Source: Radicibacter daui (GTDB lineage: Bacteria > Pseudomonadota > Alphaproteobacteria > Radicibacterales > Radicibacteraceae). Taken from it: a stretch of 64,000 bases of DNA. The stretch's first letter is position 1; every line of letters begins with the position of its first letter. The notes below the pieces were generated by a model. That model made no database searches. It was not told where the DNA came from and worked only from the letters and a program-made list of their open reading frames with translations. Where the stretch lies: the NCBI GenBank assembly GCA_030657355.1, contig CP131056.1:2624501-2688500 (forward strand), in the 5' to 3' direction. The position numbers were made by a program, and so were the translations under genes. Shown piece by piece: positions 1-21,927 of this stretch.

Positions 1-204
1 CCGGCCGTTGAAGGCGGTTATCGCGTCGTCTTTCTGGCGAGCGATCAGGAAGAGGCGATTGCGCCCGTAGCCGATCTCGCCAGACAGCTCGGTTTCGCAC
101 CGGTCAATCTCGGCAGGCTCGGCGAAGGCGGCTGGCTGGTCCATGCACGGGACCGCGTCTGGGGGCCGCTGATCTTCCAGGACCTGTTCAGGAAGGACCA
201 GTAA
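1..204 (+). CDS. NADPH-dependent F420 reductase-like protein, C-terminal end (partial)
   Basis: The window opens inside this gene; only the last 67 codons are present, ending in TAA at 202-204. The visible peptide has the pattern typical of the end of the NADP-binding F420-reductase-like family: a beta strand with VVFLASDQEEA, then VADLARQLGF-PVNLGRLGEGG, and a GPL-F-DLF tail. These proteins bind NADP in an N-terminal Rossmann fold that lies outside the window. Many alphaproteobacterial members do not act on F420, so the substrate is unknown. The family call rests on this tail alone and could be wrong. About 150 bases without a gene separate it from the oppositely oriented amidohydrolase. Confidence 0.55.
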   Translation, partial: PAVEGGYRVVFLASDQEEAIAPVADLARQLGFAPVNLGRLGEGGWLVHARDRVWGPLIFQDLFRKDQ

Positions 205-353
205 GCAGCCCCCGGTTTCTGGCGGCGGCCGCGGTTAACCCGGACCTCCGCCCGAACGCCCTCGTCGCCCACGGCAACGGTCAGAACCAGTCCCGGATTA
301 TACGATGGAGGCCCCGCGCCGTGCTGACGATGCGGGGTCTGCCACTTCCGTCC

Positions 354-2009
354 TCAGCCCTCGTGGATGATCCGCCCGCCGCAGATCGTCAGGGCCACGC
401 CCAGAGCGGGAATTTCGCCCGGCTCCGTGGCCTCGATATCCCCGCCCAGCATCACGAGGTCAGCGGCAAGGCCGGGGCGCAGGGTGCCTGTCACATGGTC
501 CCGGTGCGCCGCCCAGGCGCCGCCTGCGGTGTAGGCGCGCAGCACCTCCATCAGCGCCAGGCGCTCGTCGCTGGCCCCCTCATAGGGTGTGCGCGTTAGC
601 GCCGCCGATATGCCGCGCAGCACCGAGACATCCGCCACCGGCCAGTCGCTGGCAAAAGCAACCGGGGCGCCCGCCTCGGTCAGGCTGCGACAGCGATAGG
701 CATCCGCCCACCGCGCCTTGCCGATGCGCGAGAGCGTCGGCTGCGGCGGGAAATCCATCGCCCCCGGCACATGGGGCGGCTGCAGGCTGGCGGTGATGCC
801 GAGTGCGCCCAGCCGGGGCACATCGGCGGGGTCAATCAGCTCGATATGTTCGATACGGTGGCGGCTGTCGCGCCGGCCATTGGCGGTGCGGGCCGCCTCG
901 TACCCGTCAATCACCGTGCGCACCGCACCGTCGCCGATGGCATGAACCGCGATCTGCAGGCCGCGCCGGTCAATCTCCGTGGCAATCTGGTTGAAGCGCT
1001 GCGGCGGGAACAGCGGCTCGGAGCGGTGGCCGGGCTGGTCGGCATAATCCCGCAGCATATAGGCCGTGCGGCTGTCGATCACCCCGTCCATGAACATCTT
1101 GACGAAGCCGGAGCTGATCCAGTCGCCGTCAAACTCCGCCGCCATGGCAGAAGCACGCTCCAGCGCCTCCATCCCCATATGCGGCTTGAAATGGAACGGC
1201 ACCTTTACCCGCAGCGGCAAGCTGCCCTCGGCCTGCATTTGTGCCAGCAGCACCAGCGTGTAGCGGTTGCCATCCATGTTGACGAGGCTGGTGACGCCGT
1301 GGGCGGCGCAATGCTGCATGCCCTTCAAAAGCAGCGCCTTGTCGGCGGCGCGCTCGGCGTCCGTCGGCCAGGGGTCAGGCTCCTCCCCCGTGGCGATGCC
1401 CAGATTGATGCGCCCTTCCCCGGCAAAAGCGATCAGCGGACCAAAGGCCTCGAACTCGCGCAGCTCGCCGGTGGCAAGCCCGTCCGCCCCCATCACCACC
1501 TCATGGCCGGGCGGCGTCTTCGCGCCCCGCAGCAACCCCGCTGCTTCCAGCGCGGCCGTGTTGGCCCAGACCGTGTGCAGATCGGGCGACATCATCGCGA
1601 TGGGGCGGTCCGCAATCATCGCATCAAGGTCATGGCGCGTGGCGGCTTTATCGAGGATGCCGTAATGCGCTTCCTGCGCCATCAACAGCTTCATATCAGG
1701 GTTGGCGGCGCCGAAGTCGCGGAAGGCTTTGGCAACAGCTTCGGCCCCATGCAGATGGCCGATATGCAGGTGGGTCAGGTCCGCCCCGCCCAGCCCCACA
1801 TGCACATGGCCTTCAAAAAAGCCGGGCAGCACCGTGCGCCCGGCCGCATCGATAATCCGGGTTTCCGACCCGGCCAGCGCCCCGATCTCGCCGGTGCTGC
1901 CCACCGCAAGGATGCACTCGCCGGCAAGGGCCACGGCCTCAGCGCGCGGGCTTTCCGGGTCCATGGTCAGGACACGGGCATTGATCACGATCAGGTCGGG
2001 GACTGTCAT
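354..2009 (-). CDS. Amidohydrolase family 3 (YtcJ-like) metal-dependent hydrolase
   Basis: The 551-residue protein has the metal-dependent amidohydrolase layout: a small beta domain at the start, a GHVHV metal motif near residue 70, then a TIM barrel with AVHAIGDGA, RIEHIEL and ASDWPV signatures that carry the later metal-binding His and Asp residues. It lacks a clear signal peptide and is probably cytoplasmic. The family hydrolyses amide or related C-N bonds; the substrate cannot be read from the sequence. I chose ATG at 2009 because an AGG motif lies 12 bases upstream; GTG at 2027 and ATG at 2021 are alternatives that add a few residues. The cupin gene lies upstream on the same strand with a 48-base gap, so the two may be co-transcribed. 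Confidence 0.9.
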   Translation of the reverse strand: MTVPDLIVINARVLTMDPESPRAEAVALAGECILAVGSTGEIGALAGSETRIIDAAGRTVLPGFFEGHVHVGLGGADLTHLHIGHLHGAEAVAKAFRDFGAANPDMKLLMAQEAHYGILDKAATRHDLDAMIADRPIAMMSPDLHTVWANTAALEAAGLLRGAKTPPGHEVVMGADGLATGELREFEAFGPLIAFAGEGRINLGIATGEEPDPWPTDAERAADKALLLKGMQHCAAHGVTSLVNMDGNRYTLVLLAQMQAEGSLPLRVKVPFHFKPHMGMEALERASAMAAEFDGDWISSGFVKMFMDGVIDSRTAYMLRDYADQPGHRSEPLFPPQRFNQIATEIDRRGLQIAVHAIGDGAVRTVIDGYEAARTANGRRDSRHRIEHIELIDPADVPRLGALGITASLQPPHVPGAMDFPPQPTLSRIGKARWADAYRCRSLTEAGAPVAFASDWPVADVSVLRGISAALTRTPYEGASDERLALMEVLRAYTAGGAWAAHRDHVTGTLRPGLAADLVMLGGDIEATEPGEIPALGVALTICGGRIIHEG

Positions 2010-2057
2010 GGGGTGCCGCATCCTCACGAAGCGCCGGCGTTAAAGGGCCGGACCGGA

Positions 2058-2411
2058 TTACTTCAGCTTGATGGCGAAGTGCTTGCGCACCGGCTCCTCG
2101 ATTGTCCAGGTGCCCTTGAAGGTCGGCTCAACGACAAAAGCATCGCCGGGCGTCAACGTCACCGGCGCGCCGCCATCGGGGGTAATGGTGATGCGGCCTT
2201 CGATGAGGTGGACGAATTCATAGAACTGGTAGGTGGCGTGCCACGTGCCCGGCGTCGCTTCCCAGGTGCCGGAGATCATGCTGCCGTCGAGCGAGGCATG
2301 CTGCACCCAGTAGCGCATCGTCGGGTTGCCGTCGGTCTTCACCCAGCCGTCGAGATCGGTGGTGATGGCCCCCTCGCCCGGTGCGGGAAAACGAAATACC
2401 GTATCGCTCAT
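2058..2411 (-). CDS. Small cupin-domain protein (DUF861/cupin_3 type)
   Basis: The protein has 117 residues and one cupin barrel. The segment YEFVHLIEGRITI-PDG-TLTPGDAFVV, then FKGTWTIEEPVRKHFAI, matches the DUF861 (cupin_3) pattern of Trp-rich small cupins related to EutQ and ureidoglycine aminohydrolase domains. The catalytic role is unknown. ATG at 2411 is preferred over ATG at 2423 because AGGA at 2417-2420 sits at Shine-Dalgarno distance from it. It lies just upstream of the amidohydrolase on the same strand, which suggests a shared transcript and perhaps a shared pathway, although that link is inference only. Confidence 0.85.
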   Translation of the reverse strand: MSDTVFRFPAPGEGAITTDLDGWVKTDGNPTMRYWVQHASLDGSMISGTWEATPGTWHATYQFYEFVHLIEGRITITPDGGAPVTLTPGDAFVVEPTFKGTWTIEEPVRKHFAIKLK

Positions 2412-2622
2412 CTTTGTCCTCATGCGGCGCCGTGGTGGTCAGAATATCTGGTAAGCGGCTCCCGCGCGCCGCGCAAGATGGACCACAGACGCCGGCGCCC
2501 GGCTGTCGAAACTGTTGGCACAAGCTGTCGCTTTAGGGGCTGGTGCCGGGCAGCGAAATCAGTCAATCACGGAGGGCGCGCGGGCGTGAGACCGGGGCGC
2601 AGGGCAAGGACGGGGAACGGGC

Positions 2623-3204
2623 ATGGAAATTCGCGCGGCCAGGGCATCGGATGCCCCGCATCTGGTGCGTTTCATCAACATGGCGGCGGATAATTTGCCG
2701 CTGCATTTCTGGCGCAAGACGGTTGGCCCGCAGGGTGATCCCTGGGCGCTGGGAGAAGAACGCGCGGCACGCGAGACCGGCAATTTCTCCTACCGCAACG
2801 CCTGGCTTGCCGAAGTGGACGGTAGCGTCGCTGCCTGCCTTCTTGGCTACGCCGCCGAAAAAGAGCCCGCCCCCATCGAGCCGGACACCCCGCCGCTGTT
2901 CGTGCCGCTGCTGGAGCTGGAAGCGATGGCCCCCGGCTCCTGGTACCTCAACGTTCTGGCCACCTACGAGGCGTTCCGCGGCAAGGGCCTTGGCAGCGCG
3001 CTGCTCGCGCATGCTGAAACGATTGCCGCTGCCGCCGGCCATGACACCATCAGCCTGATTGCCGAAGACACGCATCAGGATGCGCTCCGCCTCTATGTCG
3101 CCAAAGGCTTCCGCGAGATCGCCCGCCGCCCGGTTGTGAAGGAGGACTGGGAGGTGGACGCCAGCGAGTGGATCCTGTTCACGAAACCTGTCCAAGTCGG
3201 TTGA
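2623..3204 (+). CDS. GNAT family N-acetyltransferase
   Basis: A 193-residue single-domain GNAT acetyltransferase, predicted cytoplasmic, that would transfer an acetyl group from acetyl-CoA to an unknown amine. The acetyl-CoA pyrophosphate loop (motif A) is visible as AFRGKGLGSALL at about residue 125, preceded by the beta-4 strand WYLNVLATYE; the C-terminal beta strand ends EWILFTKPV. GGGGAACGGGC precedes ATG 2623. It is the last ordinary GC-rich chromosomal gene before the foreign segment and transcribes away from the cupin gene. About 200 bases follow it with no recognizable gene, promoter or terminator. Confidence 0.85.
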   Translation: MEIRAARASDAPHLVRFINMAADNLPLHFWRKTVGPQGDPWALGEERAARETGNFSYRNAWLAEVDGSVAACLLGYAAEKEPAPIEPDTPPLFVPLLELEAMAPGSWYLNVLATYEAFRGKGLGSALLAHAETIAAAAGHDTISLIAEDTHQDALRLYVAKGFREIARRPVVKEDWEVDASEWILFTKPVQVG

Positions 3205-3404
3205 TTCGCGCCTACGCGGCGCTATCCGACACAAACCAAGGTGACTCCCCCACTTGCGGCGTAATACGTTAGCAGAAAGTCTTGCCGCGAAGACACACCG
3301 CGAACGTTTGTGCGAATTTTGCGCGCCGCTGGCAGTCGGAGCAGAATGGACAGTAAACTTTGCTTGGCGTTGCCTGACCGGCCAAAACGGCTGCGGGAGA
3401 ATTT

Positions 3405-5441
3405 ATGGCCAACACCGAGCACGTGTCTGTCGCAGTGCAGGACGACTTCATAGCGCGCCAGACGCGCGCGAAAGCCGTACCTGCTCTCGCCGAAATCATC
3501 TGGAATGGCCTGGACGCCGATGCGACGGAAGTAACCGTCGAGTTCGCACACGACGACCTCGCAGGAGGCATGTCGAAGGTTGTTGTCTATGATAATGGCA
3601 CGGGCTTCTCTCGCGAGGACGCCAATGCACTGTTCGGCAATCTCGGCGGTTCATGGAAGCGCAGCACGCGGCAGACTAAACGCGAAGGGCGGATGGTGCA
3701 CGGTCAGGAAGGGCGCGGCCGCTACAAGGCCTTCGCACTTGGCCGATCCGTGCGATGGAAGGTTTGCTATGAAACGCCGACTGGAAACCGAGCTTTCCAG
3801 ATCGATCTTCTTGAGGCCGATCTCAAGGACGTGACTATTAGCGCCGACGTAGCCGCCCCTAATCGAAAAACTGGAGTAATCGTCGAGATCACAGACCTGC
3901 GGCGCGACTTCAAGGTTTTTGAGAGCCCCGAAGGACTGCAAGAACTAACCGAGACATTCGCTCTCTACTTGATCAATTACGAAGCTGTCAGCATCGCTAT
4001 GGCAGGCGAGCGACTGGACCCTGAGAAGGCTATTGCTAGTCAGCACAAAGTTCCACTTTCACCGATCACGACCGCTGACGGGCAATCCCATCCCGTTAAG
4101 CTCCACGTGATTGAGTGGCATGCTGATACCAAGCGGACCCTCTATCTTTGTTCTCAAAATGGTTTTCCGCTCGATCAGGTGGAAGCCCGCTTCCACGTTC
4201 AAGGCTTCGCGTTTTCCGCTTATCTAAAGTCGGCCTACGTTGAAGCGCTCCACAACGAAGGTCGCGCGGGCCTCGCGGAGCTCGATCCAGATCTCGCCGT
4301 CGCTGTCGAGGAAGCTCGCAACGAGATCAAGGCTTACTTCAGAGAGCGTGCATCCGAGCGGGCTCGCTCAGTCGTGGAGGAATGGAAGGATGCCGACATC
4401 TATCCTTACAGCGGCGAACCGGCGAATACGACTGAGCGCGCCGAGCGGCAGGTGTTTGATATCGTGGCTGCCCAAGTCCAGCAGTATACACCTGATATTG
4501 AAGCCACATCAAAAAGGACTCGCGCACTCCAGCTCTGGATGCTGAAGAACGCGATCGAGCGAGGACCAGAAGAGCTTCAATCAATATTAAAGGAAGTGCT
4601 GGACCTTCCGGTATCACAGCAGAAAGATTTTGCAGCCTTACTTCAGGAAACAAACCTCTCCTCGATTATCACTGCCGCCAAAACAGTTGCTGACCGTTTA
4701 AAATTCCTCTCTGCGTTAGAGAGTATTGTTTTCGATCCTGAGAAAAAAAAGCGGCTAAAGGAACGCACTCAGCTGCATAAGATTCTTGCGGAGAACACGT
4801 GGATTTTCGGGGAGGAATACAACCTTTGGGTAAGCGATCAAGGGCTACGTAAAGTACTTGAGAAGCATAAAACATTTCTCGATCCAAACATCGCAATCGA
4901 GGAACCGGTAAAGGTAGTAGGGCAAAAGGTTGGCATCGTCGATCTGATGTTCTCTCGCCTAATGCGGCGGCACAAGGCGGGCGACGTTGATCACCTCGTT
5001 GTCGAGCTAAAGGCCCCTAAGGTTATCATCGGATCCGATGAGATCGCACAAGTTAAGAAATACGCGCAGGCCGTTGCCAACGACGAGAGGTTCAACACCG
5101 TGAAGGGGCTGCGGTGGCACTTCTGGGTCGTTTCAAATGCTTACGACGACTATGCGGCAGAAGACATTGACTCTGTCGACCGTGAACGTCGGCTAGTGCG
5201 AAATAGCAACGGCGTAACGGTAGGAATAAAGACTTGGGCAGAACTCATTGATGAGAACCGCGCTCGATTACAATTTTTTCAAGAGAAACTCGATCACCGC
5301 GCCGACGAGAGTGAGGCGATCCGCTACCTTCAGGAGCGTCACAGTAAGTTCTTGGAAGGCGTGATTGTCGAGGGCGATAATGAGAATGCGACAGCGAGTG
5401 CTAACACCGGCGAACCTGAGGAAGCCGAAGTCACCAAGTGA
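3405..5441 (+). CDS. GHKL ATPase fused to Shedu-type (DUF4263-like) nuclease; putative defence protein
   Basis: The 678-residue protein joins two domains. Residues about 20-200 form a GHKL (HSP90/MutL/MORC-like) ATPase: an N-box with E30, N34 and D37 (AEIIWNGLDADA), a G1 box DNGTGF at 63-68, GNLGGSWK at 78-85 and a lid motif GQEGRGRYKAF at 100-110. Residues about 455-625 resemble the Shedu nuclease: LAENTWIFGEEYN, then a PD-(D/E)XK core with D513 (VDLMF), E534 and K536 (VVELKAP), and Q549-KKYA. The middle (200-455) is helical with no known domain. GHKL-ATPase genes of the MORC/MutL type occur in restriction-like systems, and Shedu (SduA) is an antiphage nuclease; the combined role here is inferred. 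Base composition is lower in GC than the flanking chromosome. GGGAGAATTT precedes ATG 3405. Confidence 0.85.
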   Translation: MANTEHVSVAVQDDFIARQTRAKAVPALAEIIWNGLDADATEVTVEFAHDDLAGGMSKVVVYDNGTGFSREDANALFGNLGGSWKRSTRQTKREGRMVHGQEGRGRYKAFALGRSVRWKVCYETPTGNRAFQIDLLEADLKDVTISADVAAPNRKTGVIVEITDLRRDFKVFESPEGLQELTETFALYLINYEAVSIAMAGERLDPEKAIASQHKVPLSPITTADGQSHPVKLHVIEWHADTKRTLYLCSQNGFPLDQVEARFHVQGFAFSAYLKSAYVEALHNEGRAGLAELDPDLAVAVEEARNEIKAYFRERASERARSVVEEWKDADIYPYSGEPANTTERAERQVFDIVAAQVQQYTPDIEATSKRTRALQLWMLKNAIERGPEELQSILKEVLDLPVSQQKDFAALLQETNLSSIITAAKTVADRLKFLSALESIVFDPEKKKRLKERTQLHKILAENTWIFGEEYNLWVSDQGLRKVLEKHKTFLDPNIAIEEPVKVVGQKVGIVDLMFSRLMRRHKAGDVDHLVVELKAPKVIIGSDEIAQVKKYAQAVANDERFNTVKGLRWHFWVVSNAYDDYAAEDIDSVDRERRLVRNSNGVTVGIKTWAELIDENRARLQFFQEKLDHRADESEAIRYLQERHSKFLEGVIVEGDNENATASANTGEPEEAEVTK

Positions 5442-5514
5442 CATTCAGCACCGGTTTACGGCGCGGCGACCGACGTTCTGCGCAACGTATCACGTGAGCA
5501 TCGTCTAGGTCACC

Positions 5515-5526
5515 GCATCGCGATGC
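5515..5526. repeat. 12-bp perfect palindrome in the gap between the two defence-module genes
   Basis: GCATCGCGATGC reads the same on both strands and lies in the 288-base stretch (5442-5729) between the GHKL-Shedu and DUF3800 genes. It is immediately followed by a second short palindrome, GCGATCGC. It could be an operator for the downstream gene, but short GC palindromes are common in such genomes. I see no convincing gene, promoter or terminator elsewhere in this gap. Confidence 0.3.
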
Positions 5527-5729
5527 GATCGCGGCATCGGAAGGGCGCTCGTGGTGGCTTCCTCGCAGGCGCAGTTGGTGATTTGTTGCGCATTGAACTC
5601 GGCCGGCATGGTGCCTTCGTCTAGTGGCCTTCATTCTGGATCGTTTCTAGGCTCTCAAGCCGGTTGCCTGCAAACCGACATAGCTCGGTCATTAGCCACG
5701 CGGATGGATCGCCGTACGCCGGGGGATGC

Positions 5730-6569
5730 ATGAAGTTCATCTATGTGGACGAGAGCGGAGCGCGGGACCAAGGCGACGTGTTCGTGATGTCCGGGCTGAT
5801 GGTTGACGCCTACAAGCTACGAAAGAAGACGGCTGACTTTGACGCGAAGCTAGAAGCCATCTTTGCTCGACACCCCGGCACACGCGGCGACCTCAAGACA
5901 AAGCGCTTCATCAACGGCGCTGGCGCCTGGAACCAAGTGCCCGCGCAACAGCGCAAGGATTTTCTGCGAGAAATATGCGAGTTGGCCGTCGCCAACGGTG
6001 GCAAGGTCTACGGGATTGCCCTCTCCTACGATCGGTTCGACGCAGCGCTCGCCGCCGGCTACGGTCACCCATTTGCGAGGAGCTATTGGATCGCAGGCGC
6101 TATGTTTGTCTCCTCGCTGGTGCAGAAGAAGATGCAAGGGGTGGCGAATGCCAAAGGCCTGACCGTCGTTATCATGGACGACAACAAGCAGGAGATGGCG
6201 AACTTCTCCGATGCCCTCTACAGGCGCAGCGAATGGTATGATGGCCTGTATCAGTGCCGGGGCACGACGCGCGGCAGGAGTGTTTGGTTGGCCCGGCGGC
6301 AAGAGGACCGTTTCGACCAAATCATCAACACCGCCTTCGCGATTAAGTCAGATCATTCTTCGCTGGTGCAGGTTGCCGATGCTCTGAGTTGGGTTTACCG
6401 CCGCCATCTCGAGTTGAGATCGCAGATCGAGGCCTATGCTGGGGAGAGTGCCTATTACCAAGACTTGGTCGATATCCTAGAACCGCAGCGCGAGAAGCTC
6501 GGACGCTGTCCGAATGAGCCTTGCGTCGCATTTTATCAAGATGCGCGTCATGAAGAGTGGGCAATCTGA
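5730..6569 (+). CDS. DUF3800 domain protein (RNase H-like fold), defence-associated
   Basis: A 279-residue protein of the DUF3800 family. The N-terminus KFIYVDESG gives the hallmark acidic DES motif (D7, E8), VVIMDDNKQEM follows in the middle, and LVQVADALSWVYRR near residue 215 supplies the late conserved Q-x-AD motif. The fold is predicted to be RNase H-like, so a metal-dependent nuclease activity is possible but untested. ATG 5730 is chosen because GGGGGA lies just upstream; starts further upstream would lengthen it into unlikely sequence. It follows the GHKL-Shedu gene on the same strand after 288 bases, so a shared island is clear but a shared operon is not. DUF3800 genes are often found in mobile and defence islands. 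Confidence 0.85.
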   Translation: MKFIYVDESGARDQGDVFVMSGLMVDAYKLRKKTADFDAKLEAIFARHPGTRGDLKTKRFINGAGAWNQVPAQQRKDFLREICELAVANGGKVYGIALSYDRFDAALAAGYGHPFARSYWIAGAMFVSSLVQKKMQGVANAKGLTVVIMDDNKQEMANFSDALYRRSEWYDGLYQCRGTTRGRSVWLARRQEDRFDQIINTAFAIKSDHSSLVQVADALSWVYRRHLELRSQIEAYAGESAYYQDLVDILEPQREKLGRCPNEPCVAFYQDARHEEWAI

Positions 6570-6837
6570 CGGGCTGGGGTCGCAAGTTCGTGATCGATGG
6601 TGCAACCATCCGCACCGACTGAGGGTATATCCCGGCGACCGTCCTCCCAAAGGGAGGATGGGTGCCAACATACGGAAGATGGTAGCGGTTTCACATCGTC
6701 CGTAGAGTGCGCGCCTATCGGGCCAGCGGGACAAATAAAGCGGTTTAGCTCAACAGGAGTCAGCGACGCAGGAGAATGACATTCAAGCGAAGGCAGAAAC
6801 CACCGCAGATGCTAAGCTGTTGTCACCGTTTGTATCC
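6570..6837. other. Non-coding stretch left of the element junction
   Basis: No gene is supported here. The one structure visible is a hairpin with the 7-bp arms TCCTCCC (6642-6648) and GGGAGGA (6652-6658) around an AAA loop; there is no U-run after it, so it is not a standard intrinsic terminator. This stretch separates the DUF3800 gene from the left att core. Confidence 0.5.
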
Positions 6838-6857
6838 GATCACTCCCACTCAATTGT
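6838..6857. other. attL: left attachment core of the guaA-targeting element
   Basis: GATCACTCCCACTCAATTGT matches GATCATTCCCACTCAATCGT at 22209-22228 in 18 of 20 positions, in the same orientation. Read on the minus strand both copies encode the last codons of guaA, T-I-E-W-E-stop, and both differences are synonymous. The sequence right of this site is AT-rich and unlike the left side, as expected for a junction. I infer that this is one end of an element inserted by the tyrosine integrase at 20694-21902. Exact crossover bases cannot be set by eye. Confidence 0.75.
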
Positions 6858-6913
6858 AAAATTACAATAAATATTCAATATTTTCATTATCTTATGTTTA
6901 ACTCACCCAGGCG

Positions 6914-6933
6914 ATACCATGGGAAATACCATG
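6914..6933 (+). repeat. Paired ATACCATG repeats near the left end of the element
   Basis: ATACCATG occurs at 6914-6921 and again at 6926-6933, 12 bp apart, about 60 bp inside the left att core. The same octamer recurs at 21928-21935, 21997-22004 and, inverted, at 22024-22031 near the right end. This distribution suits arm-type binding sites of the integrase or sites for the AlpA-like factor, though no binding is shown. The rest of 6858-7019 is AT-rich with no supported gene. Confidence 0.5.
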
Positions 6934-7019
6934 TTCCGAATTTTACTCTGAGAGCACAAACATGCTTTCATCCTGACTAACATAGCTTGTGCTCTCTAAT
7001 CTATGGCGGGGTAACTTAC

Positions 7020-8786
7020 TTAATCAAACCTGAAACCAAAAAGGCCGCCATCGTCTTCAGAGTCAGAAAGCCGTGTCGGCAACACAAACGCCTGTCTATC
7101 AATAGTACTCGGTAATGGCAGACGGTCGAAGATATCGGAATTCATAGTGACCAGATATTGTCCGCCAATACGGTCAGCAGTGGATTTCCCAAGCTGTAGT
7201 GCAATCGACACTTGACGCTCATCAACACCATCAAAAAGATGGCTGTCATGAATTAAAAAGCCGGGACCACGACGCGAATCGGCGGTCAGAGAAAGCAAGG
7301 CAAGATCTAAGCAGAATATTTCGATCTGTGAGATACCGCCACCTCTATCGCCCTGAATTGTGATCTCGAATTCTGGCCCATTATCCTTTGCGGCAACAAC
7401 AAACTCTCCCGTCCGATCTCCATATAAATTCGAAATAGCCGCGCCGATAAAGAGAATAGCCTTGTCAAGTTGTGCTTGCCGCGCCTGATGATCCTCCTGT
7501 AAACGCCGTTTTAAGTTTATCCGGTCGCTTTCCAGCTCAGTCTTCTCGCCTTCGAGTATTTCAGCAGCCTTGTAGCGCTCACGCAGCGCAGCCGCCTCTA
7601 CAGCTAGCGTAGCCAAACGCTCCTGCAATGCGGTGAAATCCTCTAGTGCTCCGCTACCATCTAAAAACCTAAGAATCTCGCTGCGTTCAGCATCAAGCGA
7701 CATTGAACGGGTCTCTGCCTCGCTAAGCTCGTGCCTGATCGATTGGATCTGCTCTTTAAGCCTCTTTCTTCGGTTTGCCACCACTGACTCATGAAACGCT
7801 TTCACCTCTTCGAAACGTCTCACGGCGAGGGATGGCAGCTCAACACCCACAGCTTTATAAAGACGTTCCACATCCGTCGACGTGGGCGGTTGTTCGTTCC
7901 GGTACGTGGTTTCGAGATGGTCGATGGTCTGCTTCAGGATGACCGCATTTCGCTCGATCGCGAGCATTTCACCACGGATCGCTGATGCACGGTCTGACAT
8001 TTCACGATAACTCTCTACAACGCGGAATGCAGCCAAATCGGCTCGTAACTTCTCAACATTCGCCTCAGCGCGGACAACCCGTGGGCGTAGCTCAGCCACC
8101 GTGCCAATAATATCCCCAACCGCGCCGCCCTTAGCCGCTTTCTTGATTTCCTCAAGCTGGCGTTCGCGCTGCCGGACTTTCTCAAGCTCAAATGGAATCG
8201 TCCAGTCAAGGCCCAACAGATATGAAAGATTGACTTGGCTATCCCACGAAGACTGCTTCTCAGACTGCTTTTCAGCCCTAATGAAGCCACCACGCCGTCG
8301 AATGAAGTACGCAATCATCGAACGAAACGTTGGCGTGTAAGATTGCTCAAACAGCGTGCCTTTCGTTGGAAACGGCAACCCAAATAGCCGATTGCCGAGA
8401 AACTCCTTCCATACCTCGTTTGAGACAAAATGGAGGCCGGATTTCTTGTCCAGCTTGGGGGTCAGCCCAAGAGCAATAGCCTGCCCCTCATCGAGAATGA
8501 TCTTCGATGGTGTATTCCCCGATCGCCCAATGCGGAGCTGCACACCCTGAAATTCGAATGTTCCGTAAAAAGTGTAGGCCTTCAGAGCTTCGTGGCAAGG
8601 GAGCGCTCCAGAAGACTTTCCACCTAACAAGAAGTGGATAAGCTCTACGAGGCTCGTTTTGCCAGCACTATTGCGCGTTTGCCTATCTCCAGAATTAGGT
8701 GACTTGTCGGCAAGCAGTACATTAAGCCCCGGCCCCAATCGGACCGGCTTGAAACTCTGCAAGTCGCTCTCGATCGCTATAATCAT
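7020..8786 (-). CDS. ABC-three-component (ABC-3C) system ATPase, DUF2326/YydD-like
   Basis: The 588-residue protein is an SMC/RecN-like ABC ATPase of the kind found in ABC-3C conflict systems. A Walker A-like loop TRNSAGKTS lies at about residues 37-45, a long coiled coil spans about 200-430, and the C-terminal half-site has GISQIEIFCLDLALL followed by the Walker B-like GFLIHDSHLFDG. The split nucleotide-binding domain around a coiled coil is as expected for the family. ATG 8786 overlaps the stop of the small middle-component gene (8783) by ATGA, which fixes the start and indicates translational coupling. It is the last gene of a three-gene operon read leftward. The role is inferred to be sensing or nucleoprotein remodelling that licenses the effector. 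Confidence 0.85.
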   Translation of the reverse strand: MIIAIESDLQSFKPVRLGPGLNVLLADKSPNSGDRQTRNSAGKTSLVELIHFLLGGKSSGALPCHEALKAYTFYGTFEFQGVQLRIGRSGNTPSKIILDEGQAIALGLTPKLDKKSGLHFVSNEVWKEFLGNRLFGLPFPTKGTLFEQSYTPTFRSMIAYFIRRRGGFIRAEKQSEKQSSWDSQVNLSYLLGLDWTIPFELEKVRQRERQLEEIKKAAKGGAVGDIIGTVAELRPRVVRAEANVEKLRADLAAFRVVESYREMSDRASAIRGEMLAIERNAVILKQTIDHLETTYRNEQPPTSTDVERLYKAVGVELPSLAVRRFEEVKAFHESVVANRRKRLKEQIQSIRHELSEAETRSMSLDAERSEILRFLDGSGALEDFTALQERLATLAVEAAALRERYKAAEILEGEKTELESDRINLKRRLQEDHQARQAQLDKAILFIGAAISNLYGDRTGEFVVAAKDNGPEFEITIQGDRGGGISQIEIFCLDLALLSLTADSRRGPGFLIHDSHLFDGVDERQVSIALQLGKSTADRIGGQYLVTMNSDIFDRLPLPSTIDRQAFVLPTRLSDSEDDGGLFGFRFD

Positions 8787-9034
8787 GTGTGGTTTTCCGA
8801 TCGCTGCACAAGTCCCTGCGAAAGTTCGACCGCAGAGATTGCGTATAAAAATGTGAGCGCCAAGATGAACCAGTCGTAGGGCAGCGCTGCTCCTCGCGAA
8901 GTTTCTCCTCGGCTTGCCAAGACTCGCTCCCAAATTTCGGAAACCGCTCGTGGCTCTTCAAGTTGCACGAGTATTTCACCGCCAATGCCTGCTAACGAGC
9001 GACTCTCGGAGATATGTTTCGATGGTAAAATCAT
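8783..9034 (-). CDS. ABC-3C system middle component (MC6-like)
   Basis: An 83-residue protein. The N-terminal MILPSKHISESRSLAGIGGEIL, the TVS-like segment AVSEIWERV and YDWFILALTFLYAISAVELSQGLV match the pattern I know for ABC-3C middle component 6, which resembles a small winged-helix domain linking ATPase and effector. It overlaps the effector stop upstream by four bases (9031-9034) and the ATPase start downstream by four bases, so the three genes form one tightly coupled operon. The length is normal for the family. No catalytic residues are expected. Confidence 0.85.
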   Translation of the reverse strand: MILPSKHISESRSLAGIGGEILVQLEEPRAVSEIWERVLASRGETSRGAALPYDWFILALTFLYAISAVELSQGLVQRSENHT

Positions 9035-9963
9035 GCTCCCACCTTGGCGGGATGATCTTCAAATATGTCACAGGCATCGAATAAATAAGCCAAAAGCGCC
9101 TGCGCCGCGACCTGCCTAACGGCAGTCACGGATCCGATGCCCGTGACCTGTTCATACAATGCATCCATAATCTCGCCCGGCGAAAGCGCCTCTTGCTTCA
9201 GCGCTTGATAACGGCTGGAAAACTCCCGCGCTACCAGTGCACCCATCTCAACGTTGGGATGATGCTCGAAGTATCGCTGTACATGGGGGCCGTTGCTCGA
9301 AGCGGCGGTCAACAGCTGGATCCAATGCCCCGGGAGTTGATTGAAAGTTAATTTGTCGGCAGGCACAGGTTTGATCTCGCCGCTGATTGCACCTCCGGCC
9401 GCTATCGTGGTCATCAGCGAATCCGTCAGCGCCCTAACTTCTTCAAGCTTCAGATTCTGATTATCTTCCGCCGTTGCAGCTGGCCCCAAAAGGCTGAACA
9501 AAGTGTTTTCGGGGAGTTCCTCCACAATCGCCCATATGCTTGCTGGGCCGAACGTACCAACTACGTGCAAACCCAACGCCTTGAGTTCTTCTATCTTCTG
9601 TACTGCCTCGACAGGTAATCCATTCACCAAGTTATGGGCGAAATGCCACTCTTTCATAATCGAGCCGAGATGGCCGCCTGCAAGTTGGTAGTCCTCGCCC
9701 ATCTTCTTCACGATCGTCGCTACGTTGGGTGCCGCATCTTCCAACTTGCCGTAACATTGGAAAACTTGTCCGCCCGTGCTCCGGTACCCATCACATCCTT
9801 TATCACCAAGAGAGCCAAAAGGCCGCACTCGGATGAAGTCACTTAAGTAACGCGCCTCCATTACCGTTGAAAAAAAATCCTGAAAAGCGACGCCATAAGC
9901 ACTCCGGATCTTTAGATCGAACGTAACCCGATATTGCCAACGCTGAATCGGCTGCATTGTCAT
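9031..9963 (-). CDS. ABC-3C system effector with nuclease-like N-terminal region
   Basis: The 310-residue protein is the first large gene of the operon and fits the effector or C-terminal-domain component of ABC-3C systems. Residues about 20-75 contain GDKGCDGY (53-60) and VFQCYG (67-72), reminiscent of the G-x-G-x-D-G...Q-x-K core of Mrr-like restriction endonucleases, but with Y in place of the usual K. The remaining 200 residues are helical and likely bind the middle component. A DNA-targeting effector activated by the ATPase is the inferred role; the altered catalytic motif leaves enzymatic activity uncertain. No good Shine-Dalgarno is visible before ATG 9963; ATG 9957 is an alternative. 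Confidence 0.8.
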   Translation of the reverse strand: MTMQPIQRWQYRVTFDLKIRSAYGVAFQDFFSTVMEARYLSDFIRVRPFGSLGDKGCDGYRSTGGQVFQCYGKLEDAAPNVATIVKKMGEDYQLAGGHLGSIMKEWHFAHNLVNGLPVEAVQKIEELKALGLHVVGTFGPASIWAIVEELPENTLFSLLGPAATAEDNQNLKLEEVRALTDSLMTTIAAGGAISGEIKPVPADKLTFNQLPGHWIQLLTAASSNGPHVQRYFEHHPNVEMGALVAREFSSRYQALKQEALSPGEIMDALYEQVTGIGSVTAVRQVAAQALLAYLFDACDIFEDHPAKVGA

Positions 9964-9965
9964 GA

Positions 9966-10100
9966 TTAAAGGAACGCCTCTCTGTTACGTTTCCAGCTAA
10001 TGTAGTATGCGCGTGCATGCGGGGTCTTGCCAACCTTTGAAAGAAAGACTTGCGCCGCGTGATAGTGATTATTTTCAACCATTACCGTTTCTCTCTTCAT
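9966..10100 (-). CDS. Possible small protein upstream of the ABC-3C effector
   Basis: An open frame of 44 codons (MKRETVMVE...REAFL) ends two bases before the effector start, a spacing usual for operon partners. It has many charged and aromatic residues, no membrane segment and no family I recognise. A start at the internal ATG for MVENNHYH is equally possible. It may be no more than leader sequence; the tight spacing is the only argument for it. Confidence 0.25.
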   Translation of the reverse strand: MKRETVMVENNHYHAAQVFLSKVGKTPHARAYYISWKRNREAFL

Positions 10101-10184
10101 GGTCAAAAATGGCAGAAGCATAAGCGAACTCAAGATCGGCATAACCATCGCCACGTCCGTAGCGAATTTTAATGGTCACTCCCA

Positions 10185-10472
10185 TTATTCGTTAGTTGAA
10201 GGCCATTGCTGTGCTGCGTGCAACACACGCAGAATGCGCACAATCAAAGGGTCTTCCGTATACACAACAATGTAGTTTGCTCGGACGACCATTTCTCGCG
10301 TACCTTCAATCCGTCCACAACGGTATAGCCTCGGATGTTCCGGCAGCCTCGCTGCCTTGGCTTCTATATCGTCTTTCAGCCATTGAGCAGCGTCTGGATT
10401 GTCGTCTGAGATGTAATCAACAATTGCCAGTAAATCCGCTCGTGCCAGTTGGGACCATTCAAGCTCGGGCAC
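10185..10472 (-). CDS. RelE/ParE-family toxin
   Basis: A 95-residue toxin of the RelE/ParE superfamily. The pattern W-QLARADLLAIVDYISDDNPDAA, then RLPEHPRLYRCGRIEGTREMVV-ANYIVVY and a C-terminal VRILRVLHAAQQWP, is that of chromosomal and plasmid ParE/RelE toxins, in which the late Arg and His residues matter for activity. RelE members cut mRNA on the ribosome and ParE members poison gyrase; the sequence alone does not settle which applies. The start overlaps the antitoxin end by 14 bases, so translation is coupled. The pair probably stabilises the element. Confidence 0.9.
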   Translation of the reverse strand: MPELEWSQLARADLLAIVDYISDDNPDAAQWLKDDIEAKAARLPEHPRLYRCGRIEGTREMVVRANYIVVYTEDPLIVRILRVLHAAQQWPSTNE

Positions 10473-10758
10473 GGCGCTTCCTGTCGATAAGATCTTGCGC
10501 CTCGTCCATTACCTGTTGATGTGGTACATCCGGCTGGCTGTCCGACAAAGCCTCATGCACCTTGGCGCGGAACCACTTGTCATGGGCTTCCGGGTCAGTT
10601 GTCAGTCCCACAGGCAAACCGCCTTCTTTGGTGACGCGAGTCAGGAAAATTCGCACGGCATCCGAGACTGATAGACCAACGTTAGCGAGCTTTTCGGTCG
10701 CATCAGCCTTCAGCTTGTCGTCTACACGGATGTGCAGCATGGATGTTTGAGCAGCCAT
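10459..10758 (-). CDS. RelB/DinJ-family antitoxin
   Basis: A 99-residue antitoxin. The N-terminal HIRVDDKLKADATEKLANVGLSVSDAVRIFLTRV is the ribbon-helix-helix DNA-binding domain of the RelB/DinJ family, and the C-terminal half, rich in charged residues, is the usual toxin-binding tail. It precedes the toxin gene in the canonical order. AGGAG at 10766-10770 is at proper distance from ATG 10758. A palindrome upstream lies inside the predicted promoter and should be its own operator, giving autorepression. IncQ-2 plasmids such as pTF-FC2 also carry a related toxin-antitoxin set, which agrees with the replicon type found here. Confidence 0.9.
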   Translation of the reverse strand: MAAQTSMLHIRVDDKLKADATEKLANVGLSVSDAVRIFLTRVTKEGGLPVGLTTDPEAHDKWFRAKVHEALSDSQPDVPHQQVMDEAQDLIDRKRRARA

Positions 10759-10787
10759 CGTATTTCTCCTAGTGTCAGATCCCCTTG

Positions 10788-10816
10788 ATTGTGTATCTCA
10801 TTCGAGATACAGTCAA
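10788..10816 (-). promoter_or_regulatory. relBE promoter with operator palindrome in its spacer
   Basis: Reading leftward, a -35 TTGACT (10811-10816) and a -10 CACAAT (10788-10793) are separated by 17 bases. The spacer holds a palindrome, TGTATCTC-4 nt-GAGATACA on the plus strand (10792-10811), flanked by further arms CCCTTGA (10782-10788) and TCAAGGG (10813-10819). This is a good site for the ribbon-helix-helix antitoxin to block polymerase. The -10 match is 4 of 6. Confidence 0.6.
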
Positions 10817-10907
10817 GGGCCAACTACTGCTGGCTTGGGCGCTGGGCTACCTGCGGCAGGGCGACGTAATTGAGCGGATCCTGAACAAGAAGGAAATCGC
10901 CAAATGA
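10791..10907 (+). pseudogene. Possible remnant of a small transfer or replication gene
   Basis: A 38-codon frame starts with GTG inside the relBE operator and ends TGA at 10905-10907, encoding V-Y-L-I-R-D-T-V-K-G then an amphipathic stretch LLLAWALGYLRQGDVIERIL. The lack of its own upstream sequence suggests the 3' end of a gene whose front was replaced when relBE arrived. The family is not recognised. Its stop overlaps the next start (ATGA), as intact operon genes do, which argues that this tail was once coupled to the following gene. Confidence 0.3.
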
Positions 10908-11110
10908 ATGACGAGACAAATCCCGTTAATATCCGGAAAGATCGCCCTCACGACGAGATGATGGCCGAACTGTTTCGCTCGGATCCAGCCCATGCGATAG
11001 CAATATTGGCCGAGGTGCGCCGTTGTGGCGATGCCGACGAGTTGCACATCCTTATCCGACAGCTTAGAACTGCATTTGGACCGGACTGGCCCGGCTTCAT
11101 TAATGATTAA
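10904..11110 (+). CDS. Small plasmid-type protein resembling an addiction-module antidote fragment
   Basis: A 68-residue acidic protein. The segment DEMMAELFRSDPAHAIAILAEVRRCGDADELHILIRQLRTAFG resembles the N-terminal half of the HigA-like 'probable addiction module antidote' family (D-P-x-x-A-x-x-x-L-x-x-A-L-E-x-G-D), but the helix-turn-helix that normally follows is missing. It may therefore be truncated or a distinct small protein. The start overlaps the preceding frame by ATGA. No toxin partner is visible beside it. About 155 bases without a supported gene follow before the end of traI. Confidence 0.45.
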   Translation: MNDETNPVNIRKDRPHDEMMAELFRSDPAHAIAILAEVRRCGDADELHILIRQLRTAFGPDWPGFIND

Positions 11111-11266
11111 ACCTAATCTTTTTAGCGTTGTTGCAGACTCCGGATTGCCACATGTCCGCATAGCGGATACTCAACTATCCTCCTAATGTGTATCACCTGT
11201 GCCGAACGGAGCTTTTGCATTTCTGTCTTTCTTTTCCTCGGCGCTTTGGATTGTGCAATCCAAATC

Positions 11267-13219
11267 TTATGTCAGTTCGTTAGACCTGCCTTCTGGTCGC
11301 TTCTTGCCACGCTGAGGCGTTGCCGCCGCCGACTTGCTTCCCTCATGCACTTGGGTGCCCGTCTGGCCGTGCACCTCGGCCTGAAAGGCCTTCTCCATTT
11401 CCTTATGCTCGGCCGTCTCACGGCGCATCTGCTCCATCGCCGGATCGGTGAACGTGACCTTGAGGCCGTGCATACCAGCAAGCTGCGCGACCTCAAGTCG
11501 GAACTCGTCTGTGCCTTCCACGATGAGGGCTTGGCCCTCGAACCGCTTGGACGCCAGTTCGAGCGCAACCAGTGCCGCGCCGGTCGTGGCTTTCTGAGCC
11601 TGAACGTGCGTCTTCCGGTCGATCACCATGCCGCCGTCGATGGTGCTGTACGCCATCGTCCCGTCTTTCCGAGCCTTGGGCTTGAGCTTGTCGAGAACGA
11701 CAGCCTTGGCCTTGTCGGCCCGGTCGGCGGTCAGTAGCTCCCCGTTCCAGCGCCGTGTCCGTTCCTCGCGGTCGCGCAGCACGGCCAGCGCCTCGGCGTT
11801 GCCGCGCTCGGCCTGCTGCGTCAGCCAGTCGGCCCAAGTGGGCATCGTCGTTTGTTTGAACAGCGCCTGACGGCGAGCGTCTGCGCTCTGGCGGTTCTTT
11901 TGGCGCGAGGCGTCGGCCTGCTGCTTGATAGTGCCGTACATCAGGCGTTTGGTCGGCCCCTTGCCCGCGACCTTCAAAAGCATTCGCTCTGTCTGGCTCC
12001 ACTGCCGCACCTGCGCATTGAAAGCCGCACTCTCGCGCTTGATCTGGTCGAGGCCCTGACGGCGGGCCAGAATGGCCGCCTGTCGCTCGCGCTGGTACTG
12101 GTTGAACAGGCTCGCTGTCGTCGGGTTATCCGGCCGCCGGGGTCGTGGCTCGTACCGCTTGCGGTTCGCCTTCGCTTCGACCTGCCGTTCGGAAGGCTGG
12201 AACGGGCCAAGACGGTCGGTTAAGGCCTTCATGGAAAGGTCGCGACCTACGTTGCTGGCCTTCGCCCAAATGCCTAAATCTGGCTCGCCGATGACAAGGC
12301 CAGCGCCGCGCTGGCGAACCTCTAGGCCGTGCTCGGCCGCTGCGTCGTGCAGCTCCTGCCAGCTCGTCGCCTGCCGCATCGCCGGGGCCAGCTCGCGGGC
12401 CGCGTACCCGGTCAGCGTCTCAATGCCGGACTGCGCCTCCACGCTGGCCACTTTCGCGCCGATGCGGACTGGCTCCGCTTTATCCGCTGACTGCTTCTGT
12501 AGACGGGTATCGGACAGCTTGCGCAACCCGTTCAGGGTTTTGGCTTCGGGAGGCTCCGATATGCTGAGGTCGTAAGCGTTTCTAAGATGTTTACGGAATA
12601 GGCTATCGCGCTGCTCTGGGGCTTTCGCTGGCAACAGCTCAATGCCGCGGTTCTGATGCCGCTGCTTTGCCTCCAGACCATGAAACGTTCTTTGCAAGCC
12701 ATGCTCTACCTCAAGACGCTCACAGGCCTCCATCAGGCGGAACTGATCGTAATAGGGTTCGATGTTCTGTAACCCGGTCGGGTGAACCTTGTTGATGGCT
12801 ACATGCACATGCAGGTTATCGGTGTCGATATGAACCGCTGATACACGCTGGTGCTCATCGAGGCCGATGGCAGCGCATAGTTCGTCTTCGATGGCGTGCA
12901 GCGTCTCAAGGTCTGGCTGCTCGCCGGGCGGGAAGGAATAGACAAAGTGGTACGTCTTTTCCGCCTTCGACCTGGTGTTAGCCGCTTGCGTGGCTTGGAT
13001 TAAGATAGCGGCATCTGCCGGATCATCCGTGCCGCAGTTGGTAACACGGTAGCTGGCGACCTTCTCGCCCTCGGTCGTGCCATTGGCGGAATCCAGAATG
13101 TAATCGGCTGTGCGCTCCCAGCTCGTCGGGTCAATGCCACCCTTGGCCGCCACCATATACTTGATTAAACGGGCTGGGCTTGAGGCCTTGCGTTCACGGT
13201 TGATGCGATGCGCGATCAT
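11267..13219 (-). CDS. traI: MOBP-family relaxase TraI (IncP-like) with C-terminal LPD7-like domain
   Basis: The 650-residue protein is the relaxase that would nick oriT and pilot the strand into the recipient. The nucleophile is probably Y21 (RLIKYMV), and the three-histidine metal motif HIDTDNLHVHVAIN lies at residues 130-143. Residues about 480-620 (WNGELLTADRADKAKAVVLDKLK...GALVALELASKRF-GQALIVEGT-EFRLEVAQLAGMHGLKVTF) look like the LPD7 domain found in many plasmid relaxases. There is no primase domain. Its ATG overlaps the traJ stop by ATGA. With traJ and traK it forms an IncP-type relaxosome, the arrangement also seen in IncQ-2 plasmids. Confidence 0.9.
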   Translation of the reverse strand: MIAHRINRERKASSPARLIKYMVAAKGGIDPTSWERTADYILDSANGTTEGEKVASYRVTNCGTDDPADAAILIQATQAANTRSKAEKTYHFVYSFPPGEQPDLETLHAIEDELCAAIGLDEHQRVSAVHIDTDNLHVHVAINKVHPTGLQNIEPYYDQFRLMEACERLEVEHGLQRTFHGLEAKQRHQNRGIELLPAKAPEQRDSLFRKHLRNAYDLSISEPPEAKTLNGLRKLSDTRLQKQSADKAEPVRIGAKVASVEAQSGIETLTGYAARELAPAMRQATSWQELHDAAAEHGLEVRQRGAGLVIGEPDLGIWAKASNVGRDLSMKALTDRLGPFQPSERQVEAKANRKRYEPRPRRPDNPTTASLFNQYQRERQAAILARRQGLDQIKRESAAFNAQVRQWSQTERMLLKVAGKGPTKRLMYGTIKQQADASRQKNRQSADARRQALFKQTTMPTWADWLTQQAERGNAEALAVLRDREERTRRWNGELLTADRADKAKAVVLDKLKPKARKDGTMAYSTIDGGMVIDRKTHVQAQKATTGAALVALELASKRFEGQALIVEGTDEFRLEVAQLAGMHGLKVTFTDPAMEQMRRETAEHKEMEKAFQAEVHGQTGTQVHEGSKSAAATPQRGKKRPEGRSNELT

Positions 13220-13596
13220 TTGGAAACTCTCCCCATGAGCGCCCGCATGTCCTCTTGGATTGCGCGGAAATCCATCATCATCGTTTCCACGTCAATCGGC
13301 CGAGCGCCCTGACCGCGTTTCTCAGCGAGCCACAATTTCAGCAGTCCGGCCACTCGGCCTAGGTCGCCATTCACTTTTGCCAACTGGCGGACGGCTTCCA
13401 AATCGGCACGTGACCCTATAGGCAGATTCAGCCCAACGGCGCGAAGGAAAGCGGCATTCGACAATCCCGCCTGATCGGCCCTTTCGGCTAGCTCTCTTTT
13501 TTCATCACTGCTGACCCAAACCTCAATTCGCTCACGCCGTGGACGTGTCCCACGCGAATGCGGCTTAATAGCCGCAATCGCATTTTCACCGGCCAT
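13216..13596 (-). CDS. traJ: TraJ/MobC-like relaxosome accessory protein (ribbon-helix-helix)
   Basis: A 126-residue protein. GTRPRRERIEVWVSSDEKRELAERADQAGLSNAAFLRAVGLNLP is the ribbon-helix-helix signature of IncP TraJ and MobC proteins, which bind beside the nick site and recruit the relaxase; the C-terminal part, NGDLGRVAGLLKLWL, is also typical. ATG 13596 is chosen because AGAGGAAAGG directly precedes it; longer upstream starts add an atypical Cys- and Pro-rich leader. It is the first gene of the leftward traJ-traI operon, facing traK across the oriT region. Confidence 0.85.
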   Translation of the reverse strand: MAGENAIAAIKPHSRGTRPRRERIEVWVSSDEKRELAERADQAGLSNAAFLRAVGLNLPIGSRADLEAVRQLAKVNGDLGRVAGLLKLWLAEKRGQGARPIDVETMMMDFRAIQEDMRALMGRVSK

Positions 13597-13940
13597 AAAC
13601 CTTTCCTCTTTGGTGTAAATGTCGCGGAGCGACTGACAGCCTCGCAGAGCAAGATGCCGTCGAACCGCAGGTGAGTAAGGGGCGGTGTTGGACGGGTGCG
13701 GGCTTGCTCGTACCGGTACAACACACATCTTGCCGTACTGCTCAGTGCAATTTTAGGCAATTTAACGCTAATGGCCAGCTTCGCTAACATCAGTTGCGTT
13801 CATTTTCCTATAATTGCGCTAGTTTTCCTTAAATCGCGCAGCGTCGCGTTATTACGAGCGCAGAATTGCGTAAAATTGCGCTAATTTTCTTTGCTTGGAT
13901 ATACTGGTTTGGACCGAACGTTGAGAACGGAGAAAGGCAC
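13597..13940. other. Probable oriT region between traJ and traK
   Basis: In IncP systems oriT lies between the divergent traJ and traK genes, and this 344-base gap occupies that position. It is AT-rich with short repeats: GCAATTT at 13747 and 13757 (10-bp period), AATTGCGCTAGTTTTC at 13812-13827 and AATTGCGCTAATTTTC at 13874-13889 (15 of 16 identical), and AATTGCGTAA at 13864. Such phased A/T tracts suit a bent TraK-binding region. I could not find a copy of the IncP nick consensus YATCCTG|Y, so the nick position is unknown. Confidence 0.6.
13876..13905 (+). promoter_or_regulatory. Candidate traK promoter
   Basis: TTGCGC (13876-13881) and TATACT (13900-13905) are spaced by 18 bases and lie 35 bases upstream of the traK start. 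The -10 matches consensus at 5 of 6 positions and the -35 is weak. The promoter overlaps one of the oriT repeats, so relaxosome proteins could repress it, as in IncP plasmids. Confidence 0.45.
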
Positions 13941-14183
13941 ATGACCGACCATCAAAATGCAAATACTGAACGTCGCCCTCAACGCCGTGGCCGCGCATCG
14001 TTCGTGGCGGTACTGGATGAGGTGCGGAAGGAGCACGAACGCGGGGTACCGCTGGTATGGATTTATGAGGCATTCGCGGACCGGCTCGAAATGGGATACA
14101 CCCAGTTCACCAAATACGTCACACGATACATCAAACAAGGTCAGCCAATCCTCGCTCCCTACAAGCACGACGGGAAGCGATGA
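13941..14183 (+). CDS. traK: TraK-like oriT-binding protein
   Basis: An 80-residue basic protein. The core FVAVLDEVRKEHERGVPLVWIYEAFADRLEMGYTQFTKYVTRYIK parallels the conserved part of IncP TraK, which wraps the intrinsically bent part of oriT. ATG 13941 follows AGAAAGGCAC. The gene reads away from traJ across the oriT gap, exactly as in IncP plasmids. RP4 TraK is longer, so this is a short version. No membrane segment is present. Together with traI and traJ it completes the relaxosome set. Confidence 0.8.
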   Translation: MTDHQNANTERRPQRRGRASFVAVLDEVRKEHERGVPLVWIYEAFADRLEMGYTQFTKYVTRYIKQGQPILAPYKHDGKR

Positions 14184-14265
14184 TCCTGTTATGGCCAAAC
14201 ATGCCGACGGTCGTTAGAATGCAATTACATTCAACGGCGTAAAGCCAAAATGGCACCAAAGAGGA

Positions 14266-14484
14266 GTGGATAAATTGGCCAGAAAGACACTTTCAGAGCG
14301 GCGAGCTGATGCGCTTTCGGAGCTTGAAACGGCAAAAGCAAGGCTGGCAAAACTTGACAATGAGGCAGCAGAAAGAATCGGAAGAATTGCAATAAAGTCA
14401 GGATTGGTTAATCTTGAGCTTACGGACGATCAAGTCCGAGAGGAATTCGACAAAATCGTGGAAAGGATCAGCAAGGGGAATTGA
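14266..14484 (+). CDS. TraC-like small conjugation protein
   Basis: A 72-residue protein with a predicted N-terminal coiled coil (LSERRADALSELETAKARLAKLDNEAAERIGRIAIKSGL) and the short tail NLELTDDQVREEFDKIVERI. This matches the general layout of the small TraC family of alphaproteobacterial (Ti-type) mobilization regions, including the R-I-A-x-K-x-G-L motif. The start is uncertain: GTG 14266 overlaps the AGAGGAG that should be its ribosome-binding site, so TTG 14275 (M-A-R-K-T) is attractive. It precedes the next small gene by two bases. Confidence 0.65.
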   Translation: MDKLARKTLSERRADALSELETAKARLAKLDNEAAERIGRIAIKSGLVNLELTDDQVREEFDKIVERISKGN

Positions 14485-14486
14485 TC

Positions 14487-14711
14487 ATGAAGACAGCTCA
14501 CCGCATTAGCGCATTGGCCAATCAACTCAACGAACTGCAAGCCTGCCTCGGTCGAACCAGTGGGCGGCCTAGCAAGAGCGTTATGGAAGCCCAGCGCATT
14601 GCGGCCGAGCTGGCTTCTTCACTCGAAGAGTGGCACCTTGAAACGTTGCACATCCCTGAAACAGAGCGTGACCTCTATCGCGTACAGAATCCCTATTACG
14701 CGGCCCACTGA
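14487..14711 (+). CDS. Hypothetical small element protein
   Basis: A 74-residue soluble protein of no family I recognise. It has a helical N-terminal half (RISALANQLNELQACL), a basic patch SGRPSKSV and a C-terminal half rich in Glu, His and Tyr. AAGGGGAA precedes ATG 14487 at proper spacing, and it follows the TraC-like gene directly, so it is a likely real gene in that operon. The good terminator that begins 20 bases downstream ends the traK-side transcript. A mobilization accessory role is a guess from position. Confidence 0.6.
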   Translation: MKTAHRISALANQLNELQACLGRTSGRPSKSVMEAQRIAAELASSLEEWHLETLHIPETERDLYRVQNPYYAAH

Positions 14712-14730
14712 CGCCACGCACCGGCTTATC

Positions 14731-14758
14731 AAAAGCTCACTTCGGTGGGCTTTTTTTT
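14731..14758 (+). terminator. Intrinsic terminator of the traK-side operon
   Basis: The stem AGCTCAC / GTGGGCT with a TTCG tetraloop (14734-14751) is followed by a run of eight T. It ends the transcript of traK, the traC-like gene and the small hypothetical gene. A closely similar hairpin, in inverted orientation, terminates the integrase gene at 20636-20662. Confidence 0.85.
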
Positions 14759-14875: not shown

Positions 14876-14980
14876 TAAATCATTGAATTCTATGCGGATA
14901 CAAGATTATCCGCATATTTAAAACCGCTCCATATCGGTCAATAATCAAACCTCGGACGATGAGAAAATGAGGTATTCGGT

Positions 14981-15775: not shown

Positions 15776-15777
15776 TC

Positions 15778-15963: not shown

Positions 15964-15965
15964 CT

Positions 15966-17573: not shown

Positions 17574-17575
17574 CC

Positions 17576-17896: not shown

Positions 17897-17917
17897 TCGC
17901 TGGCCAGCCTCACAGAC

Positions 17918-20174: not shown

Positions 20175-20177
20175 AAT

Positions 20178-21902: not shown

Positions 21903-21927
21903 GGTCTGGTTGGGTTTCCTCTCAAAA

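Follow-up and report, generated by a model that had tools for sequence, protein, structure and literature searches.

The paraMORC3 proteins described by Iyer, Abhiman and Aravind in 2008 combine a GHKL ATPase and an S5 domain with a C-terminal REase-fold domain bearing an E-D-ExK motif (PMC2292703). They are patchily distributed, laterally mobile and often or sometimes encoded as solo genes, and roles outside restriction were considered possible for some of the solo members (PMC2292703). VcSduA of Vibrio cholerae, reported in Nature Microbiology in 2025, guards against T1-like phages and vibriophage X29, and each of the substitutions E27A and K557A abolishes this defence (PMC12137116). It is predicted to form an entwined dimer (PMC12137116) and represents the GHKL-Shedu proteins, the type I-D class of Gu et al. 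2025, as cited in PMC12137116.

A gene for a protein of this layout was found near the left end of the window, by which we mean the whole stretch of 64,000 nucleotides that was analysed. The features discussed below are located as follows.

3405-5441, forward strand: paraMORC3-type protein of 678 aa with an ATG start, comprising a GHKL ATPase with an S5-like transducer, a helical linker and a PD-(D/E)XK nuclease.
3405-4358, forward strand: GHKL ATPase and transducer module (residues 1-318), from Pfam HATPase_c_3 and a structure match over residues 10-318.
Within 3405-4358, forward strand: nucleotide-site residues E30, N34, D63, G65, G103, G105 and R106 of the 678-aa protein.
4359-4709, forward strand: helical linker (residues 319-435), from the secondary structure of the model.
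4710-5342, forward strand: PD-(D/E)XK nuclease domain (residues 436-646), from the alignment, the model, PDB matches and an HSDR_N_2 score of 25.5 bits.
Within 4710-5342, forward strand: invariant nuclease-domain residues D513, E534, K536, Q549, Y553 and W611.
5730-6569, forward strand: DUF3800 protein (PF12686) of 279 aa with an RNase H-like acidic set (D7, E8, D150, D217).
20694-21950: tyrosine recombinase beside guaA.

As judged from alignment and model, a conserved ATP site and transducer are joined by helices to an intact nuclease site. The preliminary description had read the gene as a single intact protein uniting a GHKL ATPase with a PD-(D/E)XK nuclease, and the open reading frame at 3405-5441, the Pfam matches, the alignment and the structure models all agree with it. 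The full-length model (mean pLDDT 79) placed the GHKL domain, the transducer strands, the helices and the nuclease in this order. Pfam HATPase_c_3 matched residues 26-138 with an E value of 5e-13 and was present in 24/24 members of the family alignment. The S5-like strands of the transducer lay within residues 196-275, after the GHKL domain, and helices spanned residues 277-443 in the secondary structure of the model. Thus the "helical middle of about 250 residues" proposed earlier holds for residues 277-443, whereas the part up to about residue 275 is predicted to be a beta-rich S5-like transducer. Structure comparison (VIA) showed that residues 10-318 resemble TRAP1/Hsp90, MORC2 and SMCHD1 with Z values of 17-19; the N-terminal plus middle domains of TRAP1 and MORC2 gave Z values of 18.7 and 18.1, with an rmsd of 5.4. 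As in paraMORC3, the GHKL domain carries conserved ATP-binding motifs (N34, D63, G65 and G103/G105/R106 were invariant) and is followed by an S5-type transducer, indicated by the model strands and the alignment with TRAP1 and MORC2. As in type I-D Shedu proteins, the N-terminal GHKL domain has a motif-I glutamate (E30).

A nuclease fold had also been predicted for the C-terminus, and the structure check returned one. Folded alone, the domain reached a pTM of 0.77, and its PDB matches were R.BspD6I2 (Z 9.4), EndoMS (9.3), E. coli SduA (9.2), FokI (8.8) and B. cereus Shedu (8.3); Foldseek concurred with the PD-(D/E)XK assignment. The protein therefore resembles Shedu in ending with a PD-(D/E)XK nuclease, by model and PDB search, and resembles paraMORC3 in the E-D-ExK motif of its REase fold, with E453 nearly invariant and D513, E534 and K536 invariant. 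A search by sequence for a solved structure of the nuclease half returned none. Profile comparison by hhalign aligned the nuclease region to four Shedu proteins at 78% (score 43) and to HsdR at 14% (score 28), with reversed controls at 0.2% at most. It thus favoured Shedu over HsdR, whereas the PDB Z values tied SduA with R.BspD6I2, EndoMS and FokI. The structural comparison thus settles the PD-(D/E)XK fold and, its values being tied, favours no one family. Among Pfam families the best was HSDR_N_2, as a sub-threshold match over residues 482-558. Pfam SduA_C/DUF4263 (PF14082), the Shedu signature, did not match the 678-aa protein, and it matched only 3/37 relatives, weakly (best E 0.008). The earlier label "Shedu-type" is supported to the extent that Shedu was the closest of the nuclease profiles compared; HSDR_N_2 takes the place of an SduA_C match.

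Relatives were gathered from genomes (31 loci), plasmids (50 records), two Pasteurella phages, viral contigs (25 loci) and members of the same class. In a 24-member alignment, N34, D63, G65, K85, G103, G105 and R106 were invariant in the ATPase half, as were W466, F468, E470, D513, E534, K536, P538, Q549, Y553 and W611 in the nuclease half, and E30 (at least 90%), E453 and R454 were nearly so. The residues that had been named for the nucleotide site and the PD-(D/E)XK core (E30, N34, D63, G65, D513, E534 and K536) are thus genuinely conserved rather than chance matches. Among relatives of at least 550 aa, key residues were missing only in reading frames that were cut or broken by insertions (L010, L029 and L044), and the lone substitution outside such frames was E30Q in L017. 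Relatives from other hosts that were 65-70% identical retained the same catalytic residues. Broken relatives were L010, L011, L012 and L044, the last being split by an IS5-type transposase on the Methylobacterium plasmid pLVM1 (8001-10850 of the locus).

The gene was patchy in the class sample, where it occurred in 3/189 other genomes, and relatives were also carried by plasmids and prophages. The taxa represented were alphaproteobacteria, cyanobacteria, actinobacteria and Bacteroidota, in addition to prophages. The branch is probably under-counted, because it is missed by the Shedu models of PADLOC and Pfam that were applied. In Pasteurella phage Pmp14 (L043, 4989-6947), a relative with 34.5% identity is embedded among the tail genes, flanked by those for the tail assembly chaperone and the tape measure protein, like a prophage-borne defence gene. 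A distinct GHKL protein at L055 (1216-3237, reverse strand) shows weak similarity to the 678-aa protein, and its C-terminus weakly resembles Pfam SduA_C (3e-5). Its existence suggests that the fusion of a GHKL domain with such a nuclease occurs in more than one sequence branch.

A recurrent neighbour of the fusion gene was sought in 66 loci, and no family was present in more than four of them. Two neighbour clusters reached four loci; one consisted of Pasteurella-type prophage genes and the other included three near-duplicate loci. The commonest neighbour Pfam, C5-methyltransferase, accounted for 3/91 proteins. Defence or mobility genes were found among some neighbours, including C5-methyltransferases, HpaII and LlaMI nucleases, HamA, relaxases and integrases, and in annotated plasmids DRT2 and type ISP restriction-modification (RM) genes lay near fusion relatives.

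On comparison with the described systems, the product of 3405-5441 is most probably a stand-alone paraMORC3 defence nuclease that would act in the manner of VcSduA. By analogy with GHKL proteins and VcSduA, it would dimerise, close as a clamp on DNA upon ATP binding and open upon hydrolysis, and this ATP cycle may license cleavage of invading DNA, from phages or plasmids, by the nuclease at the C-terminus. A MutL relative serving mismatch repair or recombination control instead of defence is an improbable alternative. The GHKL and transducer part does resemble MutL and MORC, the mismatch endonuclease EndoMS is among the best nuclease matches, and Iyer et al. raised this possibility for solo paraMORC3s (PMC2292703). 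However, the patchy distribution (3/189), the carriage by plasmids and prophages and the presence of some defence-gene neighbours speak against such a role, as does the demonstrated antiphage activity of VcSduA (PMC12137116).

The gene downstream had been described as encoding a DUF3800 protein with a possible RNase H-like active site. This identification was borne out by a Pfam match (PF12686, E 6e-14) and by the acidic residues D7, E8, D150 and D217, which were invariant even when distant members were included; the domain has been predicted to fold like RNase H, with its active site rearranged (PMC10910872). Homologues all open with MKF or MKI, so translation probably starts at the ATG at 5730 and not at the TTG at 5664. 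Seven of the eight close relatives of this protein, from two plasmids and five viral-contig loci, are encoded in type I RM operons, with hsdS on one side and hsdR on the other, and the eighth follows a Fic gene. On plasmids NZ_CP085149 and NZ_CP061500, the DUF3800 proteins are 65-71% identical to that of the window over its full length and the operon order is hsdS'-hsdM-hsdS-DUF3800-hsdR, with a 4-bp overlap with hsdR, whereas no hsd genes were found near the window copy. The possibility that a former type I RM operon had left it behind was rejected, as tblastn of HsdS, HsdM, HsdR and SprT against positions 1-15000 gave a best E value of 0.2.

Several observations were made around these relatives. 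In the seven loci with DUF3800 between hsdS and hsdR (L040, L041, L057-L060 and L091), an SprT-like metalloprotease gene comes after the operon wherever the locus is long enough. The sole hint of a Shedu link is in L041, where a stand-alone Shedu nuclease directly precedes DUF3800. The relative downstream of the Fic protein (L086, 2195-15001) lies close to a UvrD-like protein and to a large protein with helicase, RNase_H_2 and PD-(D/E)XK parts, in what may be a defence locus. DUF3800-associated Rfam RNA motifs were found neither near the window pair nor in eight DUF3800 loci.

The preliminary description had presented the DUF3800 protein as the partner of the GHKL-nuclease. In the genome-neighbourhood survey that it had itself put forward, the adjacency was not conserved: a relative of the window DUF3800 was found in 0/65 other fusion loci, in a phmmer search as well as with a profile covering relatives of about 26-32% identity, some of these loci being short or truncated so that full-length coverage was not uniform. 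The window DUF3800 is probably an independent orphan and not a partner of the GHKL-nuclease. It would have been gained independently as an accessory of type I RM loci, probably with an RNase H fold, and would be dispensable for the activity of the GHKL-nuclease. Its tie to type I restriction operons provides a lead on the role of the domain. That DUF3800 is a mobile accessory modulating several PD-(D/E)XK systems (type I HsdR, stand-alone Shedu and paraMORC3) is quite improbable; if it were so, the window would hold a rare case in which a GHKL-nuclease had acquired such an accessory.

It is very unlikely that the two genes form a two-component system in which the RNase H-like DUF3800 protein processes or licenses the product of an ATP-gated nuclease. 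They are adjacent on the same strand with a gap of 288 bp and a similarly low GC content, and on one plasmid the gene for a stand-alone Shedu nuclease is immediately followed by that for a close relative of the DUF3800 protein. Nevertheless, the absence of DUF3800 from the other fusion loci and its usual placement between hsdS and hsdR or, in the eighth case, behind a Fic gene argue against this pairing, and the two genes lack translational coupling, unlike the 4-bp overlaps in the type I RM operons. Promoter consensus matches between them were no better than those in shuffled sequences.

The pair had further been placed in a low-GC segment beside a mobile element, which agrees with a GC content of 0.52-0.58 over 3001-7000, compared with 0.65-0.69 to the left, and with an element that starts at 6838, to the right of the pair. 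Two copies of the 19-bp repeat GATCAYTCCCACTCAATYG, of which chance would be expected to give none, lie at 6838-6856 and, at the 3' end of guaA, at 22209-22227. Together with the tyrosine recombinase, these attachment repeats delimit an integrated mobile element of about 15.4 kb (6838-22227) whose cargo includes RepC, an AAA_25 protein, a NikA-like protein, a MobA-type relaxase, TrbL/VirB6 and RelB/ParE. The element also carries, at 7020-9963, an ABC-3C-type pair (a protein with DUF2326 and CTD10, and a CTD10 protein) that corresponds to the PADLOC candidate defence system PDC-M68 A/B, with an E value of 4e-138 for B. The GHKL-nuclease and DUF3800 genes are outside the element, flanked by a GNAT gene and the left repeat, and earlier integrations at that site may have left them behind. 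That the GHKL-nuclease gene is a non-functional relic beside this old integration site is highly improbable: it does lie outside the intact element, in a small leftover segment, and several relatives are broken, but its reading frame runs to full length and retains every catalytic residue, and these are kept in relatives of 65-70% identity.

The stand-alone defence nuclease favoured here can be set against four described groups. GHKL regions of the BbrUII/HgiDII restriction enzymes (NF050001) match residues 27-167 with an E value of 5e-13; membership of that family was rejected, as the score of 48 bits lies far below the cut-off of 550 and the best stretch stops short of the nuclease half. The SduA proteins of E. 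coli (8ps4/8ps5) and B. cereus (8ti8/8ti9) have the PD-(D/E)XK core in common with the 678-aa protein (Z 9.2 and 8.3), with W-I-F-G ahead of the core, followed by D, ExK and, on the next helix, a Q, whereas they lack a GHKL ATPase and have other N-terminal domains. VcSduA, in its published layout, is likewise a single protein with an N-terminal GHKL domain, a clamp-like middle and a C-terminal PD-(D/E)XK nuclease. The key pair of motif-I glutamate and ExK lysine is E27/K557 in VcSduA and E30/K536 here, separated by 530 and 506 residues, respectively; VcSduA has the DUF4263 signature, whereas the 678-aa protein matches HSDR_N_2 instead. Because of this nuclease match, which is to HSDR_N_2 and not to SduA_C/DUF4263, we file the protein as a paraMORC3 and not as a strict Shedu member. 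The preliminary description had foreseen a distinct defence type, but proteins with this layout have been on record since paraMORC3 was defined in 2008 (PMC2292703), and VcSduA, which shares it, was put to the test in 2025 (PMC12137116), so that the fusion belongs to an established kind. The present analysis adds a large set of relatives to a defence architecture whose published antiphage test is VcSduA. With paraMORC3, the 678-aa protein shares the whole arrangement of GHKL, S5 and E-D-ExK, and the features examined show no difference between the two.
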